Shown here: positions 25,003-33,991 of the stretch, piece by piece
Position numbering within the stretch: position 1 is the stretch's first letter
How the letters are laid out: each line of letters starts with the position of its first letter
NCBI RefSeq assembly: GCF_015291745.1
Contig: NZ_CP030059.1
Location: forward strand, 4,615,501-4,679,500
Source: Bradyrhizobium sp. CCBAU 53351
GTDB taxonomy: Bacteria; Pseudomonadota; Alphaproteobacteria; Rhizobiales; Xanthobacteraceae
Reading direction: 5' to 3'
Length of the DNA: 64,000 bases
Program-made: the position numbers and the translations under genes
The notes under the pieces: generated by a model
What the model was told of the DNA's origin: nothing
The model's database searches: none
What the model saw: only the letters and a program-made list of their open reading frames with translations

Positions 25003-25830
25003 TTACGCCGCGATGCCGAGCAAGGATCGCGCCTCGGCCGCGGTTGCGACGCGCCGGCCGTGGCGCGTGACGGCCTCACAAGCGATGGTCACGAGCTCGG
25101 CGTTGCTGGCGGCGAGGCGCGTCTTGTCGACCCTGATATTGTCCTCGAGCCCGGTCCGAACCGCGTCGGCGCCCAGTGCCAGCGCCCAGCCCATGACCTC
25201 GGCCTGATGACGTCCGATCCCGGCCGCGGTCCATGTCGCTTTCGGAATCAGCCGCTTCAGCTCCTGGAGGAGAATGTCGAGGACATGCTCATCCGCCGGC
25301 ATCGCGTTCTTGACGCCCATGACGAACTGCACATGCGGACGCGGATCGATCAGCCCCGCCTCGATCAGGCGGCGCGCACCATGCAGATGCGACAGGTCGA
25401 AGATCTCGATCTCCGGCAAGACGCCATTCGCCTTCATGCCGGTCGCGAGAGTCTCGACCAGAGCGGCGCTGTTCTCGTAGACGATCGTCGGAAAGTTCAC
25501 CGAGCCGGTGGATAGCGATGCCATGTCCGGCTTGAGGTAAAGCGAGGATCCACGTGCCGAAGGATCGCGGCCGCGCCCGCCAGTCGAAAACTGGACGATC
25601 ATGCCAGGACAATGCTTCCTGATCCCCTCCTGCACCAGGGCAAAACGCTCGGGATCCGAGGACGGCGTCTCGTCGTCGTTGCGAACATGGATGTGGGCAA
25701 GCGTGGCCCCGGCCTCGAAGGCTTGGTGCGTCGATTCGACCTGCTCGGACGGCAGGATGGGCACCGCCGGATTGTCCTTCTTGCGCGGAACGGAGCCGGT
25801 GATGGCAACAGCAACGACGACGGGGTTCAT
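25003..25830 (-). CDS. beta-keto acid cleavage enzyme (BKACE, DUF849)
   Basis: 275 residues, normal for the family. Zinc ligands H46 and H48 are seen in AHIHVRN and the metal-site glutamate in GLEDN (about residue 229), with substrate loop FSTGGRGRD. BKACE proteins, typified by Kce of lysine fermentation, condense a beta-keto acid with acetyl-CoA to give acetoacetate and a new acyl-CoA. The gene sits between two MFS genes, suggesting uptake and breakdown of one keto acid. Confidence 0.9.
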   Translation of the reverse strand: MNPVVVAVAITGSVPRKKDNPAVPILPSEQVESTHQAFEAGATLAHIHVRNDDETPSSDPERFALVQEGIRKHCPGMIVQFSTGGRGRDPSARGSSLYLKPDMASLSTGSVNFPTIVYENSAALVETLATGMKANGVLPEIEIFDLSHLHGARRLIEAGLIDPRPHVQFVMGVKNAMPADEHVLDILLQELKRLIPKATWTAAGIGRHQAEVMGWALALGADAVRTGLEDNIRVDKTRLAASNAELVTIACEAVTRHGRRVATAAEARSLLGIAA

Positions 25831-25949
25831 CCCTGGACCTCATGATGATCGCGCTCGCGCGCACAAAGTCGAATAGATCGTTAAGTAGCGCATGAAGCCC
25901 TGCCGCTGCAAACATCATGGCTCGCAGCGGCTGCCTCGTCACTTCGCCA

Positions 25950-27347
25950 TCAGGTCGGAATTGCGGCCGCACCGCTCGCCGCTTCCGCGCGCTGCCGCTC
26001 ATAGTCCGCCCGCGGCATCGGAACGGCCTTGGGATTGCCGAGATCGTCGATGCTGATCCGATAGGTTTCCCGCGCCGAGACCGCCGCCAGCGCGGCGATC
26101 ACCGTGATGCCGAAGGCGATCGCGCCCACCGTCAAGGGGATATTGGCCGAGCCGGGAGGCGCCACGGTGGCGAACAGGGCCGGAAGCAACGCGGTGATGG
26201 TGGTCCCGATGTTCTGCGAGATCGCCATCGCCGACACCCGCGTGCGCGTCGGAAACAGCTCCGGATAGAAGCTCGGGAAGATCGCGTTGTAGCCCTGATA
26301 GACGACGCCCCACATCAGCAGCGAGAGCGTGATCGCAAGCGGCACGTTCCTGATGCTGATGGCGTAGAGATAGCCGATGGCAAGCAGGCCCGAGAGCAAC
26401 GCGCCCACGATGATCGGAGGCTTGCGACCGACCTTGTCGGAGAGATGGCCGACGAAGGGAATGACGAACACGGCCAACATGTTTCCGAGCACCGGGATCC
26501 AGAGATAGACGTCCTTGGCGAAGCCGATGCCATAGGCCGGCTGCACCGCGTAGGCTGCGCCGAAGATGGTCGCCACCACCGGAATGACGTTCATCAGTGC
26601 CATGCAGATGACCCTCAGCATGTCCCGCCAGCTCAGCTTGATGGCCTGGACGATGGGCGCGCGCGGCGTTTCGCCCCGCTCGCCCTCGCGGGCAAAGGCA
26701 GGGGTCTCATCGACTTCGCGGCGAATGACATAGCCAGCGACGATGACGAAGAAGCTGAGCAGGAAGGGAATCCGCCAACCCCAGCTGTTGAAGGCATCGG
26801 TGGGCATATAGGCGGCCAGCGGCAGGAAGACGGCTGCTGCGAGAATCTGTCCTGCCTGCACCCCCTGAAGCGCGAAGCTTGCATAGAAGCCGCGCCGGCC
26901 AAACGGCGCGTGCTCCAGGATCATCGAGCTCGCGCCGGAGATTTCACCGGCGACGGCAAATCCCTGCACCAGGCGCAGGATGACGAGGAGGATCGGCGCC
27001 AGCATGCCGACTTGCTGATAGGTGGGCAGAAGACCAACGGCCATGGTCGAGATACCCATCAGGAACATGCAGACGATGAGCACCGTCTTGCGGCCATGTG
27101 TGTCGCCCCAATGACCTAACACGAAGGCACCGATCGGCCGGGCCACGTAACCGACGCCATAAGTCGCCAGCGACGCGACGATCGCGACGGTGGGATTGTC
27201 CGACGGGAAGAAGATTTGCGGGAAGATCAGCGACGCCGCGGTCGCGTAGATGAAGAAGTCATAATATTCGAGGGCTGATCCGATCCAGCCGCTGGCAGCA
27301 GCCTTCCTGGACTGACTCATATCGTGGGTCGCGCGAGCTGTTGTCAT
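25950..27347 (-). CDS. MFS transporter of metabolite:H+ symporter (MHS) type
   Basis: 465 residues with a GGGAGGAAA ribosome site. Typical MHS sequence: ALEYYDFFIYATAASL in the first helix, GHWGDTHGRKTVL in the loop after helix 2, and RLVQGFAVAGEISGAS in helix 4. Relatives carry shikimate, alpha-ketoglutarate, proline/betaine or aromatic acids. The upstream region has several palindromes (27.49-27.54 kb), so expression is probably controlled. Likely the importer for the BKACE substrate. Confidence 0.88.
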   Translation of the reverse strand: MTTARATHDMSQSRKAAASGWIGSALEYYDFFIYATAASLIFPQIFFPSDNPTVAIVASLATYGVGYVARPIGAFVLGHWGDTHGRKTVLIVCMFLMGISTMAVGLLPTYQQVGMLAPILLVILRLVQGFAVAGEISGASSMILEHAPFGRRGFYASFALQGVQAGQILAAAVFLPLAAYMPTDAFNSWGWRIPFLLSFFVIVAGYVIRREVDETPAFAREGERGETPRAPIVQAIKLSWRDMLRVICMALMNVIPVVATIFGAAYAVQPAYGIGFAKDVYLWIPVLGNMLAVFVIPFVGHLSDKVGRKPPIIVGALLSGLLAIGYLYAISIRNVPLAITLSLLMWGVVYQGYNAIFPSFYPELFPTRTRVSAMAISQNIGTTITALLPALFATVAPPGSANIPLTVGAIAFGITVIAALAAVSARETYRISIDDLGNPKAVPMPRADYERQRAEAASGAAAIPT

Positions 27348-27612: not shown

Positions 27613-28377
27613 TCATTCCGGCGGATTGAACGTCCGCACGAAATACACAGGCTCGCTATCCTTCTTCAGGCGATAGAGCTGCGCCGGGCGGTTGGCGCCG
27701 CGCCTCATCCTGGCCACCGGCTCGATCATGTCGGCTGACAGGATGCGGGTCCGGAAGGCGCTCTTCTCGAGCGGGCGATCGAGCACGATCTCGTAGACCC
27801 GCTGCAGATCCGGAAGGGTGAATTCCGCCGGCATCAGATAGGCCGGAAGCGAGGTGTATTCCACCTTGTTGCGCAGGCGCTGGATTGCGGTTACCAGGAT
27901 CTCGCCGTGATCGAAGGCAAGCTTGTCCTTGAGCCTGCCCCCGCGAATTGGAAACCAGCGCGCATCCGGCGCAAGCACGCCTGCCGCCTCCGGGATCAGC
28001 GCGAAATAGGCGTGCGTCGCCGACCAGCCGCGCGGATCGCGCGTCGCGCTCCCCCAGCTTCCGAGCTGCTCGAGATAGGGGCTGGTGACCCCGGCCTTCT
28101 CCCTCAGCTTCCGGGCCGCGCAGGCCGCGAGGTCGCTGTCCTTGGCGACATCGACGAAGCCGCCCGGCAAGGCCCAGGCCGACGGAAACGGCTCGCCCTC
28201 GTCCGCCGGTCGCTGCACCAGCAACACCTGAAGACTGTCATCCAGGATCGCGAAGATCACGACGTCCACCGTCGTCAGGGGACGCGGAAAGTCCAATTGC
28301 CGCGCCTTTCCAAGGTCCTTGCCAACGCCTTTGCCAAAATCCTTGCCAAGACCCTTGCCGAGCGCCTCGCCTGCCAT
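27613..28377 (-). CDS. NrtR-like Nudix-domain transcriptional regulator
   Basis: 254 residues from ATG 28377. After a lysine/glycine-rich start (GKGLGKDFGKGVGKDLGK) comes a Nudix domain (about 35-165) and a C-terminal winged-helix-like domain (about 175-250), the arrangement of NrtR regulators of NAD metabolism. The Nudix box reads GGFVDVAK...RKLREKAGV: the first Glu and most of the REUxEE glutamates are replaced, so hydrolysis is unlikely and ligand sensing more likely. Divergent from the SPFH gene over a palindromic promoter. The frame stays open for about 390 codons upstream by chance. Confidence 0.75.
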   Translation of the reverse strand: MAGEALGKGLGKDFGKGVGKDLGKARQLDFPRPLTTVDVVIFAILDDSLQVLLVQRPADEGEPFPSAWALPGGFVDVAKDSDLAACAARKLREKAGVTSPYLEQLGSWGSATRDPRGWSATHAYFALIPEAAGVLAPDARWFPIRGGRLKDKLAFDHGEILVTAIQRLRNKVEYTSLPAYLMPAEFTLPDLQRVYEIVLDRPLEKSAFRTRILSADMIEPVARMRRGANRPAQLYRLKKDSEPVYFVRTFNPPE

Positions 28378-28399
28378 CGCCAAACTCCGCTGCCAGGAC

Positions 28400-28440
28400 T
28401 TGACACTAGCATAGTTAGTTGTACAGTCCAACTTACTTAG
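28400..28440. promoter_or_regulatory. promoter and candidate operator between nudix and SPFH genes
   Basis: TTGACA (28400-28405), 16 bp, TACAGT (28422-28427) fit a plus-strand sigma-70-type promoter. Overlapping it is an imperfect palindrome with arms CATAGTTAGTTG (28410-28421) and CAACTTACTTAG (28429-28440), 9 of 12 positions symmetric. Position over the -10 box suggests repression by the divergent NrtR-like protein. Confidence 0.5.
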
Positions 28441-28479
28441 TTGCTCAGACACACTTATAACGCTCACCGGAGACAGGCC

Positions 28480-29526
28480 ATGTTCGGCGTCAGATACATC
28501 AAGGCTCAGCCTACCACCTATCTGATGAAGTACCGCGGCGGTGCTATCGTCGCCGAGGGCCCCGGTCTTTCCACGCTGTATTACGCGCCGGCGACCATGC
28601 TGGTCGCCGTGCCGATCGGCAGCCGCGACGCCTCCTTCATCTTCGAGCAGACCGCGCGCGACTTCCAGACGCTGACCGTCCAGGGTCAGGTGACTCATCG
28701 CATCAGCGACCCGACGAAGGCGGCCTCGATGCTCGACTTCACCCTGAAGGCGGACGGCAAGACCTATGAGAGCGACGATCCGGAAAAGCTGCCGGAACGC
28801 ATCCTCGGCACAGTCGAGGTCCTCGCCCAGCAAGCGGTGAAGGAACTGACGCTGAGGGACGCGTTGCAGGCGTCCGACCGCATCGCCGACATCATCGCGG
28901 GCGGATTGAGGCAGCGCGCCGATATCGCCTCCCTCGGGCTCGAAATCCTCGGCGTGTCGGTTCGCGGCATCAAGCCGACACCGGACACCGCGAAGGCACT
29001 CGAGGCGCAGGCCCGCGAAGCGATCCTCAAGACCGCGGATGAGGCCATCTTCGCCCGGCGCAACTTCGCCGTCGAGCAGGAGCGCGCCATCCGCGAGAGC
29101 GAACTCGACACCGAGATCGCGGTCGAGCAGAAGAAGCGGTCGATCCGCGAGACCCAGATGGACGCCGAGGCGAGCGTGGCCGCCAAGCGCAACGAGCTGC
29201 GCGAGGCCGGCATGGCGGCGGATATCGTGCTGGAAGGCAAGCGCAAGGATTTCGTCGGCCTCAACGCCGAGAACACCAGGACGCTGGCCGACGCCGAAGC
29301 CTATCGCGTCGGTGCCTTGATGAAGATCTTCGAGGGTGTCGACACCCGCGTGATCCAGGCGCTCGCCGCCGCCGGCATGCAACCGGGTCAGCTGATCGCG
29401 CAAGCCTTCTCCGGCATCGCCGAGAAGGCCGAGAAGATCGGCCAGCTCAACGTCTCTCCGGACCTGCTCAGCCAGTTGATGGAGAAGCCGCAGCCGATGG
29501 AGGCCGCCAATGCCCGCCGCCAATGA
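28480..29526 (+). CDS. SPFH/band-7 domain protein
   Basis: 348 residues from ATG 28480 with a CGGAGACA ribosome site. Residues about 20-190 form an SPFH (stomatin/prohibitin/flotillin) domain, including FQTLTVQGQVTHRISDP; residues about 190-280 are a charged coiled coil (many E/K/R heptads), followed by an Ala/Gly-rich C-terminus resembling flotillin ends. No N-terminal membrane helix is visible, so membrane attachment, if any, is peripheral. The 3' end overlaps the NAD-kinase-like gene by 17 bp. Confidence 0.85.
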   Translation: MFGVRYIKAQPTTYLMKYRGGAIVAEGPGLSTLYYAPATMLVAVPIGSRDASFIFEQTARDFQTLTVQGQVTHRISDPTKAASMLDFTLKADGKTYESDDPEKLPERILGTVEVLAQQAVKELTLRDALQASDRIADIIAGGLRQRADIASLGLEILGVSVRGIKPTPDTAKALEAQAREAILKTADEAIFARRNFAVEQERAIRESELDTEIAVEQKKRSIRETQMDAEASVAAKRNELREAGMAADIVLEGKRKDFVGLNAENTRTLADAEAYRVGALMKIFEGVDTRVIQALAAAGMQPGQLIAQAFSGIAEKAEKIGQLNVSPDLLSQLMEKPQPMEAANARRQ

Positions 29527-30445
29527 CCGCAAGGTCGTGCTGGTGACGCGCAAGACCAGGCTGGAGGACCTGATCGCGCGCCACCTGACGGCGGCGCAGG
29601 CGCGCTTCTATGTTGAGCATCTCGGCGCCGACTTCTCCGACTATGAGCGGGAGCACGAAGTCTATCGGGCGCAGCATCGCACCACGCTGCAGGTGCTGGA
29701 GCAATGGGGGCGCTATCAGATCATCGATCGCAGCTTCCTGCCGAATTTCATCTTCGGGCCCGACGACATCGTGGCCGCGCTCGGCCAGGACGGCCTCGTC
29801 GCCAACACGATGAAATATCTCAACGACCATCCGCTGATCGGGCTCAACCCCGACCCCGCGCGCCACGACGGCATTCTGCTTCCTTTCGCGCCGCGCGACC
29901 TCGCGAAGCTCCTGCCGGAGGTGGCCGCCGACAAGCGCGGCAGCCAGGCCGTGACGATGGCGGAAGCACGGCTCGGTGACGGCCAGGTGCTCTACGCCGT
30001 CAACGACCTCTTCATCGGCGCCCGTACGCATGTCTCGGCGATCTACGAGCTCACGGCCGGCGGTGCCATGGAGCGGCAGTCTTCCAGCGGCCTGATTGTT
30101 TCCACCGGGCTCGGATCGACCGCCTGGTTCAAGAGCATCGTCACCGGCTCGCTTGCCATTGCCGGCAGCTTTGGCCAGCCTCCCCTGCTCAGCGGCTACG
30201 AGGCGCTGCCCTGGGACGCGGCCGAGCTGCGCTTCGCGGTACGCGAGCCCTTCCCCAGCCGCCATTCCAAGACCAATCTCGTCTGCGGCCGGCTCGCTCC
30301 CGCAGAGCAATTGCGCATCCGTTCCTTGATGCCGGAAAACGGCGTGATCTTCAGTGACGGCGTCGAACCCGACCGCCTCGATTTCAATGCCGGCGCCGAG
30401 GTTGCAATCGGAATTGCCGGGCGGCGCGGCCGATTGATCGTGTGA
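29510..30445 (+). CDS. divergent NAD kinase (NADK) family protein
   Basis: 311 residues. Recognisable NADK segments in order are LGQDGLVANT (92-100; the family has GGDGT), PLIGLNPDP, NDLFIGARTHVSAIYEL (Asn165-Asp166, NAD contact), SSGLIVSTGLGSTAW (192-206; canonical SDGLIVATPTGSTAY) and FSDGVEPDRLDF near the end. The GGDG glycine and the TPTGSTAY threonine-proline are altered, so it may bind NAD(H) without normal kinase activity or use another substrate. Translationally coupled to SPFH. Confidence 0.75.
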   Translation: MPAANDRKVVLVTRKTRLEDLIARHLTAAQARFYVEHLGADFSDYEREHEVYRAQHRTTLQVLEQWGRYQIIDRSFLPNFIFGPDDIVAALGQDGLVANTMKYLNDHPLIGLNPDPARHDGILLPFAPRDLAKLLPEVAADKRGSQAVTMAEARLGDGQVLYAVNDLFIGARTHVSAIYELTAGGAMERQSSSGLIVSTGLGSTAWFKSIVTGSLAIAGSFGQPPLLSGYEALPWDAAELRFAVREPFPSRHSKTNLVCGRLAPAEQLRIRSLMPENGVIFSDGVEPDRLDFNAGAEVAIGIAGRRGRLIV

Positions 30446-33020: not shown

Positions 33021-33263
33021 GTGGATAAGGTAACCGCCTCCTCGACCGCAGAGCACATCCGGGCACTCGCCCGGACGTTCCACGTGTCCTATTCCGAGGG
33101 CCCAAACGACCGCTTGGCACATCATATCTCGCGCCTGGCCGGGGATCCCGTCGAGTTGGACGAGATCGAATTGTTGCTCATCGGGTTAGTGCGAGCCGAA
33201 CGAATTACGCGCCCGGAAATGATCCAGCTGCAGGCTGCCTATTTGCGTGAAGTCAGGCCGTGA
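33021..33263 (+). CDS. small partner (probable antitoxin) of Fic protein
   Basis: 80 residues if the GTG at 33021 is used; an in-frame ATG at 32943 would give 106. The stop overlaps the fic GTG by 4 bp. Like VbhA-type antitoxins it is short and helical, and carries YSEG close to the expected [S/T]xxxE[G/N] inhibitory motif, but the serine is at -3 rather than -4 from the glutamate. A TATATT box ends only about six bases before the GTG, which could mean a leaderless message. Its antitoxin role is inferred from position. Confidence 0.55.
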   Translation: MDKVTASSTAEHIRALARTFHVSYSEGPNDRLAHHISRLAGDPVELDEIELLLIGLVRAERITRPEMIQLQAAYLREVRP

Positions 33264-33991
33264 CCTTCGATCCGTTCGGCGACTTCGAAGCGCACGGATA
33301 TCTACGCAACCTTGCTCAAGAGAAAGATCCAGCGATCGTAAAGAGGCTCGAACATGCTTCCTTCACGACCGGCATCGATGAAGCATTCACGGCGCTTCAG
33401 AAAAAGCAGGCGCTCACCTACGCGGACGTGCTCAGTACCCACAAGACGTTGTTCGAGGCCATGTACCCGTGGGCTGGTCAGGATCGCGCCACGACGGCAC
33501 CGGATATCGCCGTGAGCCGGGACGGCGTTTTGTTCGCCCATCCGAAGTCTATTCAGAAGGCAATCGACCATGCGCTGAAACTGGGCAACGATCCCAAAAC
33601 CATGCGCGAGAAGCCGGGCGAAGTCATGGGCTATTTGGCCCACGGCCATCCGTTCCTCGACGGCAATGGCCGCACGATCATGGTCGTCTACTCCATACTG
33701 GCGCAACGCGCCGGCTTCAGCATCGACTGGGCTGCGACCGATAAGACCGAATACCTGCAAGCGCTCACCAGGGAACTCGACGATCCCGGCAAGGGCATCC
33801 TCGACACATATCTCGAGCCTTACATCCGCCCGGCTGTTAGCGATCTCAAAGAGCACATCAACGCTGCCAAGGGACTCGATGGCGGCAGGGGCGAGACGGA
33901 CACCGTTCGCGGGAGCAACGACGATCCGGCTGTCCAAGCAGAATACGAGCAGCAACGGCTCAAGCGCGATGAGCAAAGCAAAGGCGCTTGA
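33260..33991 (+). CDS. Fic/DOC-family protein (AMP-transferase toxin)
   Basis: 243 residues with a GTG start. The active-site motif HPFLDGNGRT (H130 catalytic) is complete and preceded by a beta-hairpin flap region, so the enzyme should be competent to transfer AMP or another nucleotide moiety to a protein target. The last ~40 residues are charged and poorly structured. There is no inhibitory helix within Fic itself, so class I control by the upstream small protein is expected. It lies 80 bases from a tRNA-Gly attachment remnant. Confidence 0.88.
   Translation: MTFDPFGDFEAHGYLRNLAQEKDPAIVKRLEHASFTTGIDEAFTALQKKQALTYADVLSTHKTLFEAMYPWAGQDRATTAPDIAVSRDGVLFAHPKSIQKAIDHALKLGNDPKTMREKPGEVMGYLAHGHPFLDGNGRTIMVVYSILAQRAGFSIDWAATDKTEYLQALTRELDDPGKGILDTYLEPYIRPAVSDLKEHINAAKGLDGGRGETDTVRGSNDDPAVQAEYEQQRLKRDEQSKGA

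Follow-up and report, generated by a model that had tools for sequence, protein, structure and literature searches.

An NrtR-type regulator, an SPFH protein and an NADK2-type kinase-like protein encoded together in Bradyrhizobium: a candidate NAD-stress module

What function might join an NrtR-type regulator, an SPFH protein and a relative of the NAD kinases in one compact locus? These three genes are found in the window, the whole stretch of 64,000 nucleotides that was analysed, and open reading frames and Pfam matches confirm the positions given to them by an initial annotation (Table 1). The nrtR gene is divergent from spfh, whereas spfh and the kinase-like gene are co-directional. The start codon of the latter is located within the 3' end of spfh, and the overlap between them, already claimed in the annotation, is 17 bp. 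The window neighbours of the trio are metabolic for the most part, and one Fic protein is encoded 2.8 kb away.

We propose with moderate confidence that the locus is a self-contained, NrtR-repressed NAD-stress module that combines an SPFH scaffold with an NADK2-type NAD(H) kinase. As the annotation had supposed, there is no description of the trio in the open-access literature searched (the founding NrtR paper lies outside that search). The trio suggests a means of controlling the cell's NAD supply that has yet to be described.

Table 1. Coordinates of the genes and predicted regulatory features of the locus, numbered from the first nucleotide of the window.
Feature	Position	Strand	Description
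nrtR	27613-28377	-	254 aa; degenerate Nudix and winged helix; ADP-ribose-sensor-type transcriptional repressor by family
Predicted spfh promoter	28400-28427	+	TTGACA (28400-28405), 16 bp, TACAGT (28422-28427); consensus match only
Putative operator 1	28415-28435	.	TTAGTTGTACAGTCCAACTTA; imperfect palindrome
Putative operator 2	28437-28457	.	TTAGTTGCTCAGACACACTTA; 22 bp from operator 1, or two helical turns
spfh	28480-29526	+	348 aa; SPFH/Band 7 protein
NADK2-type kinase-like gene	29510-30445	+	311 aa

Recurrence of the SPFH-kinase pair

There are 127 assessable loci for the kinase-like gene, and in 126 of them an SPFH gene is located upstream on the same strand within 1.2 kb. The pairing holds in 118 of 119 loci once the eight plasmid loci picked by SPFH are removed, and in 26 of 27 among the last 28 loci, which shaped no profile. 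A kinase-like gene without SPFH is found at one locus (L124). NrtR is encoded within 2.5 kb at 108 of 122 loci and is missing over that distance at the other 14, and therefore it is not essential to the SPFH-kinase pair.

Among 398 proteobacterial genomes, an identical set of 12 carries both the kinase and SPFH. Because the two profiles were built from paired loci, finding the pair again there is partly by construction; the informative point is that the 398 genomes added no unpaired genome. The gene-neighbourhood check proposed with the annotation finds the genes together elsewhere and does not refute it. The distance matrices of the three proteins also correlate (r 0.945-0.961 across 85 loci), and the best of 500 permutations reached 0.281.

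Left out of the locus counts were the C-terminal remnants L107-L111, the window duplicates L094 and L096, L003 (the same as L020), L004-L013 (for which the longer L112-L121 were used), and L105 and L106, whose contigs are, judged by length, those of L044 and L038. Four weak matches resembling ordinary NAD kinases (G815, G852, G949 and G365, E about 1e-11 to 1e-12) and the fragment G906 were also omitted. There are 47 full-length matches in Bradyrhizobium, 43 of which were not drawn into the locus set through that search.

No fourth conserved gene is evident, in that no flank family is common to more than 2 of 42 representative loci (E<=1e-8; frames of at least 90 residues, with those overlapping the trio removed). 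Together with the local NrtR-type regulator, this bears out the earlier description of the unit as self-contained. Before that removal, the 30 flank matches listed all looked like shadow frames of the trio.

The regulator and its putative operators

The regulator matches the Pfam families NrtR_WHD (8e-22) and NUDIX (1.9e-13), both above the Pfam cut-offs, and its match to Shewanella NrtR (PDB 3gz5) has an E value of 1.2e-45. Its score against NCBIfam NF050029 (E 2.9e-67) is 226.7 bits, below the equivalog cut-off of 400, and thus the protein is a family relative, not an NF050029 equivalog. Its Nudix box, previously called broken, is indeed degenerate (RKLREK), but it should not be considered decayed because the corresponding box of Shewanella NrtR is RKLAEK. 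A second NrtR-like winged helix is encoded in the genome at C1:1921923, inside a 322-residue frame that presumably resembles NadQ, a label taken from a PDB match named 'NADQ transcription factor'.

In the available part of PMC6800001, ADP-ribose frees the Mycobacterium smegmatis NrtR from DNA and NAD+ improves DNA binding by the Corynebacterium glutamicum homologue, and therefore the effect of the ligand varies among NrtR proteins. The same part of that paper describes NrtR regulons, such as M. smegmatis nrtR/nadABC, which share with our locus a degenerate-Nudix repressor, a divergent NAD-related operon and an intergenic palindromic operator. However, the predicted target here is an SPFH protein plus an NADK2-type kinase, not NAD synthesis.

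Two tandem putative operators lie over the predicted spfh promoter, whose -10 element falls within operator 1. This is a repressor-like layout, which supports the signal-released transcription envisaged in the annotation, and from it we infer NrtR binding. A palindromic operator is found close to the regulator gene at 76 of 82 divergent loci, and a second site matching at least 13 of 21 positions at 77 of 82; the median spacing of the two is 22 bp. Matches of at least 15/21 are present in just 2 of the 14 divergent loci outside those informing the consensus, and therefore the operator is lineage-specific or weaker in those loci. Betaproteobacterial loci, for example L057 and L064, have a comparable promoter/operator arrangement as judged by eye.

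The operator 1 pattern, with up to three mismatches, identifies a sole site in the 8.34-Mb genome, and a control pattern identifies none. Operator 2 is absent from this listing because it has five mismatches to the pattern, and the search would overlook other sites that have diverged as far. We also considered whether NrtR controls NAD genes here, as in the known regulons, and rejected this for want of a second operator 1 site at up to three mismatches, a threshold that misses weaker sites.

The kinase-like protein and its possible substrates

The closest solved relative of the kinase-like family by profile is NADK2 (C5orf33), which is matched in the PDB at 3.6e-19 with 71.9 bits, compared with 4.1e-5 for bacterial NAD kinases and 25.8 bits for the best non-NADK2 structure. 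The annotation was correct that the GGDG and TPTGSTAY motifs are altered: the window protein has GQDG for GGDG, VND for NE/D and STGLGSTAW for STPTGSTAY. These changes do not represent decay, since the kinase resembles NADK2 more than bacterial NAD kinases, STGLGSTAW is of the NADK2 type (human NADK2 has CTGTGSKAW at this place), and the protein retains both the catalytic Asp and the NE/D residues. Both proteins share the TGxGSxAW and N-[ED] motifs and carry SSG where NAD kinases have D-G. Unlike NADK2, the protein here is shorter, bacterial, has GQDG instead of GGDG and is encoded next to spfh almost without exception.

The alignment used for residue counts has 92 rows (90 distinct), gathered without the last 28 loci. 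GQDG is found in 86 rows and GPDG in six, with the Asp and last Gly present in all 92. Likewise, D94, N165, S191-S193, W206 and D283 are invariant, and position 166 is always D or E. In M. tuberculosis Ppnk, D85, N159, E160, T200 and Y202 have been described as vital (PMC8553519). Our alignment pairs these with D94, N165, D/E166, T/S204 and W206, which all 92 rows retain, and NADK2 also has a Trp at the W206 position. According to the same paper, the residue that governs NADH specificity is Arg in Gram-negative NAD kinases, and NAD(H) kinases carry Gly or a polar residue there; S191 occupies this position in every row. Judging from these sequence features, the protein is most likely an NADK2-type NAD(H) kinase that would convert NAD+ and NADH to NADP(H). 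A decayed NAD kinase is disfavoured by the retention of key residues in 92 of 92 rows.

The family belongs to the same superfamily as the bacterial NAD kinases (PpnK/NadK), but it misses the Pfam and NCBIfam NAD kinase cut-offs. The window protein has no match to NAD_kinase (PF01513) up to E 1 and misses its gathering score, and only 3 of 41 relatives match at E<=0.01 (best 0.002). An ordinary NAD kinase is encoded elsewhere in the same genome, and hhalign aligns the family to it with an E value of 3.7e-10 over 157 columns. The family is labelled 'sugar kinase' or 'NAD kinase' in the sources that name it.

The GQDG or GPDG motif and the silence of Pfam suggest that activity has possibly been lost or is directed at another substrate. 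One alternative, unlikely but worth weighing, is that the protein uses a different substrate, NAD-related or lipid in nature (ADP-ribose, for example), and that the unit detoxifies or re-uses ADP-ribose instead of making NADP. NADases or ADP-ribosylation turnover are example sources of this compound. The replacement of GGDG and the ADP-ribose sensing of the regulator family (available part of PMC6800001) are consistent with this idea, as are Pfam-confirmed additions to the locus. There are DUF4291, NADAR and ADP-ribosylglycohydrolase genes 3' of the kinase at L121 and the near-identical L122, NADAR and DUF4291 at L075, NADAR between nrtR and spfh at L140, and an ADP-ribosylglycohydrolase directly 3' of the kinase at L072 and on the far side of nrtR at L058. 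The ADP-ribose additions represent five lineages, and ADP-ribose or NAD genes are found at only 7 of 129 loci, two of them near-identical. The additions also fit the NAD-stress module that we favour. Furthermore, ADP-ribose-processing operons with Nudix repressors have been predicted previously (available part of PMC9503650). Those ADP-ribosylglycohydrolase systems have in common with our locus a one-component Nudix repressor, an ADP-ribose theme and occasional ADP-ribosylglycohydrolase or NADAR genes, but the glycohydrolase is only an occasional extra here, and SPFH and NAD kinase are both absent from that paper's main text. The alternative is weakened by the retained NAD-binding residues of NAD kinases and by the fact that the closest solved relative, NADK2, is an NAD kinase.

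Perhaps the protein is instead a pseudo-kinase. It would then bind NAD(P)(H) and steer assembly of the SPFH scaffold, serving as a sensor and not an enzyme. The near-obligate pairing with SPFH, the altered GGDG, the scant recognition by Pfam and the presence of a normal NAD kinase in the genome fit this proposal, but the catalytic Asp and NE/D residues retained in 92 of 92 rows would be unneeded by a pure sensor, and we consider it improbable.

Spread, the SPFH scaffold and a proposed mechanism

The pair has been seen in Proteobacteria, a Nitrospirae MAG, a Desulfobulbus MAG, a Treponema and Actinomycetota, and it is partly plasmid-borne. In the reading that we favour, the module has spread laterally. 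There are 71 matches to the kinase among 72,556 plasmid records at E<=1e-4, a few of which are fragments or ordinary NAD kinases, none among 50,697 phage records, and two on virus-labelled contigs.

This patchy, often plasmid-borne occurrence, the NAD link and a kinship with predicted ADP-ribose conflict operons (available part of PMC9503650) raise the idea of an anti-phage unit, wherein ADP-ribose from defence or phage NADases would derepress spfh and the kinase, so that the NAD pool is rescued or changed. However, PADLOC gives only a weak match of NrtR to PDC-S07 (0.0018) for the trio and weak matches to Cas6b (2 of 31) and Csx1 (1 of 31) for SPFH relatives. In addition, phage records are devoid of matches, the neighbours in the window are largely metabolic, and no trio member evolves out of step with the others. 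Phage defence, as put forward in the annotation, therefore has little support; it was rejected as the main reading on the PADLOC and phage-record results, and we regard it as doubtful.

To our knowledge, SPFH proteins are widespread and most bacterial members have no known job. The SPFH protein here matches Band_7 (PF01145) at 6.2e-12 with 46.4 bits (cut-off 23.6), and its nearest solved relatives are stomatin (PDB, 4.3e-5) and QmcA. As in other prokaryotic SPFH proteins (stomatin, QmcA, HflK/C and flotillin), a Band_7 domain is followed by a long charged C-terminal part, which looks helical by eye and ends in a tail with conserved I320, N324, P327, L329 and L330 in the family alignment. Unlike those proteins, it has no clear N-terminal hydrophobic anchor by a crude hydropathy test: the 19-residue Kyte-Doolittle mean peaks at 1.2, and the usual threshold is 1.6. 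This threshold is exceeded in 5 of 31 relatives (maximum 1.94), four times at residues 145-152 within the SPFH domain and once (L007) at residue 30. Nor is an NfeD partner gene conserved in the flanks of the 42 representative loci. Some SPFH subfamilies have such a partner and only 2 of 12 are soluble-looking in the available part of PMC2636767, and therefore a soluble protein here would be unusual. The scaffold apparently has no membrane anchor, which leaves little support for the membrane scaffold envisaged in the annotation.

The shoulder of the vault protein MVP has an SPFH-like fold. This shoulder binds ADP-ribose and an NAD+ analogue (available part of PMC13174449), but the SPFH profile has no sequence match to MVP up to E 10. 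A highly speculative extension is a soluble vault- or HflKC-like cage in which the SPFH protein itself binds NAD or ADP-ribose and the NADK2-type kinase is enclosed. This bacterial NAD-processing compartment would be switched on by a dedicated sensor of NAD breakdown, and enzymes that remove ADP-ribose would be optional cargo. In function, such a cage would parallel the NAD/ADP-ribose-binding shoulder of the eukaryotic vault. Very improbable is a membrane-microdomain organiser with the kinase as its recruited client, for which family membership, the stomatin and QmcA kinship and the five relatives above 1.6 speak, but against which stand the 1.2 peak, the position of four of the five stretches and the lack of a conserved fourth gene such as NfeD.

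In the NAD-stress module that we favour, NrtR would repress the spfh-kinase promoter from its two tandem operators and, as in its family, would be released by rising levels of ADP-ribose or a related NAD product. SPFH and the kinase would then be made from their overlapping genes. The SPFH protein may form a ring or cage, and the near-perfect co-occurrence suggests that the kinase is held on this scaffold. Working beside the ordinary NAD kinase of the cell, it would most likely make NADP(H) from NAD+ and NADH, which would divert NAD from breakdown or supply NADPH under stress. If the unit is indeed a source of NADP(H) induced by NAD breakdown, it represents a new type of response to NAD stress. 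The kinase family is a bacterial relative of mitochondrial NADK2, and an SPFH family whose sole recurring partner is an NAD-kinase relative offers a biochemical handle on the scaffold role. Certain lineages add ADP-ribose-removing or NAD-salvage genes to the unit, and the L123 contig carries NAD-salvage-like genes (isochorismatase-fold and NAPRTase-like).

Conservation of the nrtR, spfh and kinase-like genes

The window is located at C1:4615501-4679500 of an 8.34 Mb genome and carries a trio comprising genes for an NrtR-like regulator, an SPFH protein and a kinase-like protein of the NADK2 type (P0003). The kinase-like gene starts inside the end of spfh with a 17 bp overlap. Judging from matched protein ends, Bradyrhizobium loci L014-L056 share this overlap length with one exception (42 of 43), and the same length also occurs in some lineages outside this genus. 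Among the 120 matches listed of 8,000 scored, all organism-named relatives of the kinase-like protein are from Bradyrhizobium.

Features of the trio and its surroundings in the window
Feature	Position	Strand	Remark
BKACE-family beta-keto acid cleavage enzyme gene and adjoining MFS transporter gene	25003-27347		
nrtR	27613-28377	-	intact open frame
NrtR N-terminal low-complexity repeat	28309-28377		GKGLGKDFGKGVGKDLGKA; precedes Nudix domain
operator 1 (putative)	28415-28435		TTAGTTGTACAGTCCAACTTA
operator 2 (putative)	28437-28457		weaker copy, 22 bp after operator 1
spfh	28480-29526	+	intact open frame
kinase-like gene	29510-30445	+	intact open frame
Fic/DOC family protein gene	33260-33991		Pfam 1.4e-10; ~2.8 kb downstream of trio

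The trio is conserved as a unit. Relatives of the kinase-like protein were sought with six peptide patterns in the genome_contigs collection (84,980 species), and the best 80 of 342 were retained. These were combined with further genome samples, eight plasmid records chosen from SPFH matches and two virus-labelled contigs, giving 129 scored loci. The initial annotation had proposed that the NrtR-like regulator, the SPFH protein and the altered NAD-kinase homologue form one NAD-signalled unit, and the test set beforehand was whether these genes occur together in other genomes. They do: an SPFH gene is found no more than 1.2 kb upstream of the kinase-like gene, on the same strand, in 126 of the 129 loci. 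The SPFH side is cut by a contig edge in two others (L122 and L133), and SPFH is absent from one (L124). The association persists without the eight plasmid loci (118 of 119 assessable) and in the latest 28 loci to be added (26 of 27 assessable). In the 126 SPFH-paired loci, nrtR is divergent in 93, co-directional and upstream in 15, and absent within 2.5 kb in 14, while four have less than 900 bp upstream for this scoring. The gene lies beyond 2.5 kb in L097, L123 and L147.

Similarly, among 398 proteobacterial genomes drawn evenly across the phylum, the kinase-like protein (E<=1e-8) and this type of SPFH protein (E<=1e-10) are each found in 12. These are the identical 12 genomes, including that of the window, and the coordinates are side by side. 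As the SPFH profile derives in part from these carriers, the weight of this test lies in the absence of any addition from the remaining 386 genomes. The best few candidates per genome were scored. The three proteins travel together: their pairwise distances across 85 loci are correlated at 0.945, 0.949 and 0.961, compared with permutation maxima of 0.259-0.281 (500 permutations each).

No paper combining SPFH with NAD kinase was found in the open-access literature, a coverage that excludes the founding 2008 NrtR paper, which could list genes of the trio. There is one paper each for 'band 7' with NAD kinase and for NrtR with 'band 7', both unrelated judging by title. The main text of Leyn et al. 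2016 on NrtR regulons (PMC5343134) contains neither SPFH nor 'band', that of the prokaryotic SPFH survey (PMC2636767) lacks 'kinase', and the accessible text of a survey of P. aeruginosa SPFH genes (PMC13086221) has no 'NAD' term. Nudix-repressor ADP-ribose systems are predicted in PMC9503650, whose main text mentions neither SPFH nor NAD kinase.

Two side observations concern the surroundings. The BKACE and MFS genes likely form a small catabolic unit unrelated to the trio. A frame ending at 33263 overlaps the start of the Fic/DOC gene, and could encode its partner.

The kinase-like and SPFH proteins

The kinase-like protein retains the key residues of the NADK2 type. With a profile of 41 members, human NADK2 scores 3.6e-19, and no bacterial or yeast NAD kinase does better than 4.1e-5. 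The alignment to the genome's own NAD kinase has an hhalign E of 3.7e-10, and the paired motifs are GQDG/GGDG, VND/INE and STGLGSTAW/ATPAGSTAY. The vital residues of M. tuberculosis Ppnk, as given in PMC8553519, are D85, N159, E160, T200 and Y202. Their counterparts D94, N165, D or E166, T or S204 and W206 are present in all 92 rows (90 distinct) of our own alignment, and W206 is also the residue type of NADK2. The same paper assigns Arg to the specificity position of Gram-negative NAD-only kinases and Gly or a polar residue to that of NAD(H) kinases. In the trio's family, all 92 rows carry Ser there, which suggests that these proteins could accept NADH as well. The GGDG motif is not retained, with Q in 86 and P in 6 of the 92 rows, and Pfam NAD_kinase does not match P0003. 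Thus, NAD(H) kinase activity stays presumptive.

The window SPFH protein has a clear Band_7 domain, and its closest solved relatives are stomatin and QmcA. Prokaryotic SPFH proteins form 12 subfamilies, two of them soluble, according to PMC2636767. There is no clear anchor in the window protein, whose 19-residue hydropathy maximum is 1.2. Values above 1.6 occur in five of 31 relatives: in L007 the stretch is at residue 30, and in the other four it falls inside the SPFH domain (residues 145-152). By this crude test, a membrane anchor is improbable. The C-terminal tail is conserved and may dock the kinase-like protein, with which the SPFH protein would form a complex.

The vault shoulder is SPFH-like. 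It contains an NAD+ analogue and ADP-ribose, according to a 2026 preprint (PMC13174449), and this is the motive for considering the SPFH protein as a soluble, vault-like cage that binds NAD or ADP-ribose and houses the kinase-like protein. However, the SPFH profile has no sequence match to MVP, and we consider such a cage quite improbable.

NrtR and the predicted spfh promoter

The Nudix box of the regulator is degenerate, like that of Shewanella NrtR. PMC6800001 describes M. smegmatis NrtR as having a less conserved Nudix motif and no hydrolase activity, and as being freed from DNA by ADP-ribose. It also describes a C. glutamicum homologue that binds DNA better with NAD+. In the window, the operator pair covers the predicted spfh promoter (TTGACA-16-TACAGT), which operator 1 overlaps. 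The operator 1 pattern occurs once in the whole genome with up to three mismatches (reversed control pattern, 0), a search blind to sites as weak as operator 2, which has five.

With a consensus drawn from some of the scored loci, 76 of 82 divergent loci have a match of at least 15 of 21 positions upstream of spfh, compared with 1 of 14 others and 0.16% of 1,848 control stretches. In the full set, 78 of 93 divergent loci reach this level, including 2 of the 14 from plasmid records or later sampling. None of the 15 loci with co-directional nrtR does so. Two divergent loci (L135 and L145) have different palindromes, TTAGTG...CACTAA, and thus the operator sequence seems to vary by lineage. We infer that NrtR represses the spfh operon and is released by ADP-ribose, and that the module may have a role in stress.

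Added genes, spread and loss

There is no fourth fixed gene among 1,657 flanking frames compared from 42 representative loci, of which 39 have a relative in one other locus and none in more. Nevertheless, seven of the 129 loci add ADP-ribose or NAD genes. NADAR and ADP-ribosylglycohydrolase belong to families acting on ADP-ribose, and NAD salvage involves NAPRT and nicotinamidases of the isochorismatase fold. Genes for DUF4291, NADAR and ADP-ribosylglycohydrolase lie downstream of the kinase-like gene in L121 (6119-9320) and in L122 (2-2828), which is 97-99% identical and was counted as the same lineage. NADAR occurs with DUF4291 in L075 (7348-8711) and between nrtR and spfh in L140 (10385-10900). 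ADP-ribosylglycohydrolase directly follows the kinase-like gene in L072 (6951-7964) and is on the far side of nrtR in L058 (2609-3520). All of these Pfam calls are above cut-off. On a 257-kb virus-labelled IMG/VR contig (L123, 1619-10153), a single row encodes NrtR-like, isochorismatase-fold, ClpP, DUF3228, SPFH, kinase-like and NAPRTase-like proteins, the last slightly below cut-off (5.2e-4, 20.3 bits), as well as a class II (D/K/N type) tRNA synthetase. These additions are the best outside evidence that NAD and ADP-ribose are the unit's concern. The L123 contig is either a jumbo phage or a mislabelled cell contig.

The module moves between lineages and gets lost. Matches are found in 52 of 195 Bradyrhizobium genomes (47 full-length kinase-like genes and five with the 3' end only). 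They are sparse in other clades: 23 of 297 genomes of the window's order (two being ordinary NAD kinases), 3 of 78 of the class of genome G060, and 16 of 369 of that of G196, including two resembling ordinary NAD kinases and one fragment. The kinase-like protein of Bradyrhizobium locus L014 is 61-64% identical to those of betaproteobacterial loci L057, L061, L064 and L073, but only 52% identical to that of Rhizobium etli. Among 72,556 plasmid records, 71 match at E<=1e-4, the weakest being 3' fragments and two Leptospira NAD kinases. Rhizobium accounts for 42, and others are from Moraxella, Acinetobacter, Proteus, Methylomonas, Treponema and Streptomyces. The kinase-like protein has no match in 50,697 phage records. 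Locus L110 (5951-6083) is a deletion scar: it has the window's neighbourhood on both sides, and everything between an internal point of nrtR and one of the kinase-like gene is gone. The window's flanks are not common to three of the five remnants (L107-L109).

Several minor observations concern partial copies and neighbours. L110 and L111 have a window-like neighbourhood in which nrtR and/or the kinase-like gene are reduced to their ends, as deletion scars of the module. Loci L038 (10825-11061), L044 (11001-11342) and L030 (2610-2855) each have, at a distance of a few kb from their intact module, a second partial copy of the kinase-like 3' end or of nrtR, which suggests repeated insertion or duplication at one place. 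L124:8815-9750 is the only full-length member of the family for which no SPFH gene was found within 19 kb, and it comes after a frame that by eye looks exported. Small plasmids of Pasteurella, Actinobacillus and Mannheimia carry 3' kinase-like fragments, and the module adjoins tetR(H)/tet(H) on Moraxella osloensis pNP7-1 (L101:6967-8881).
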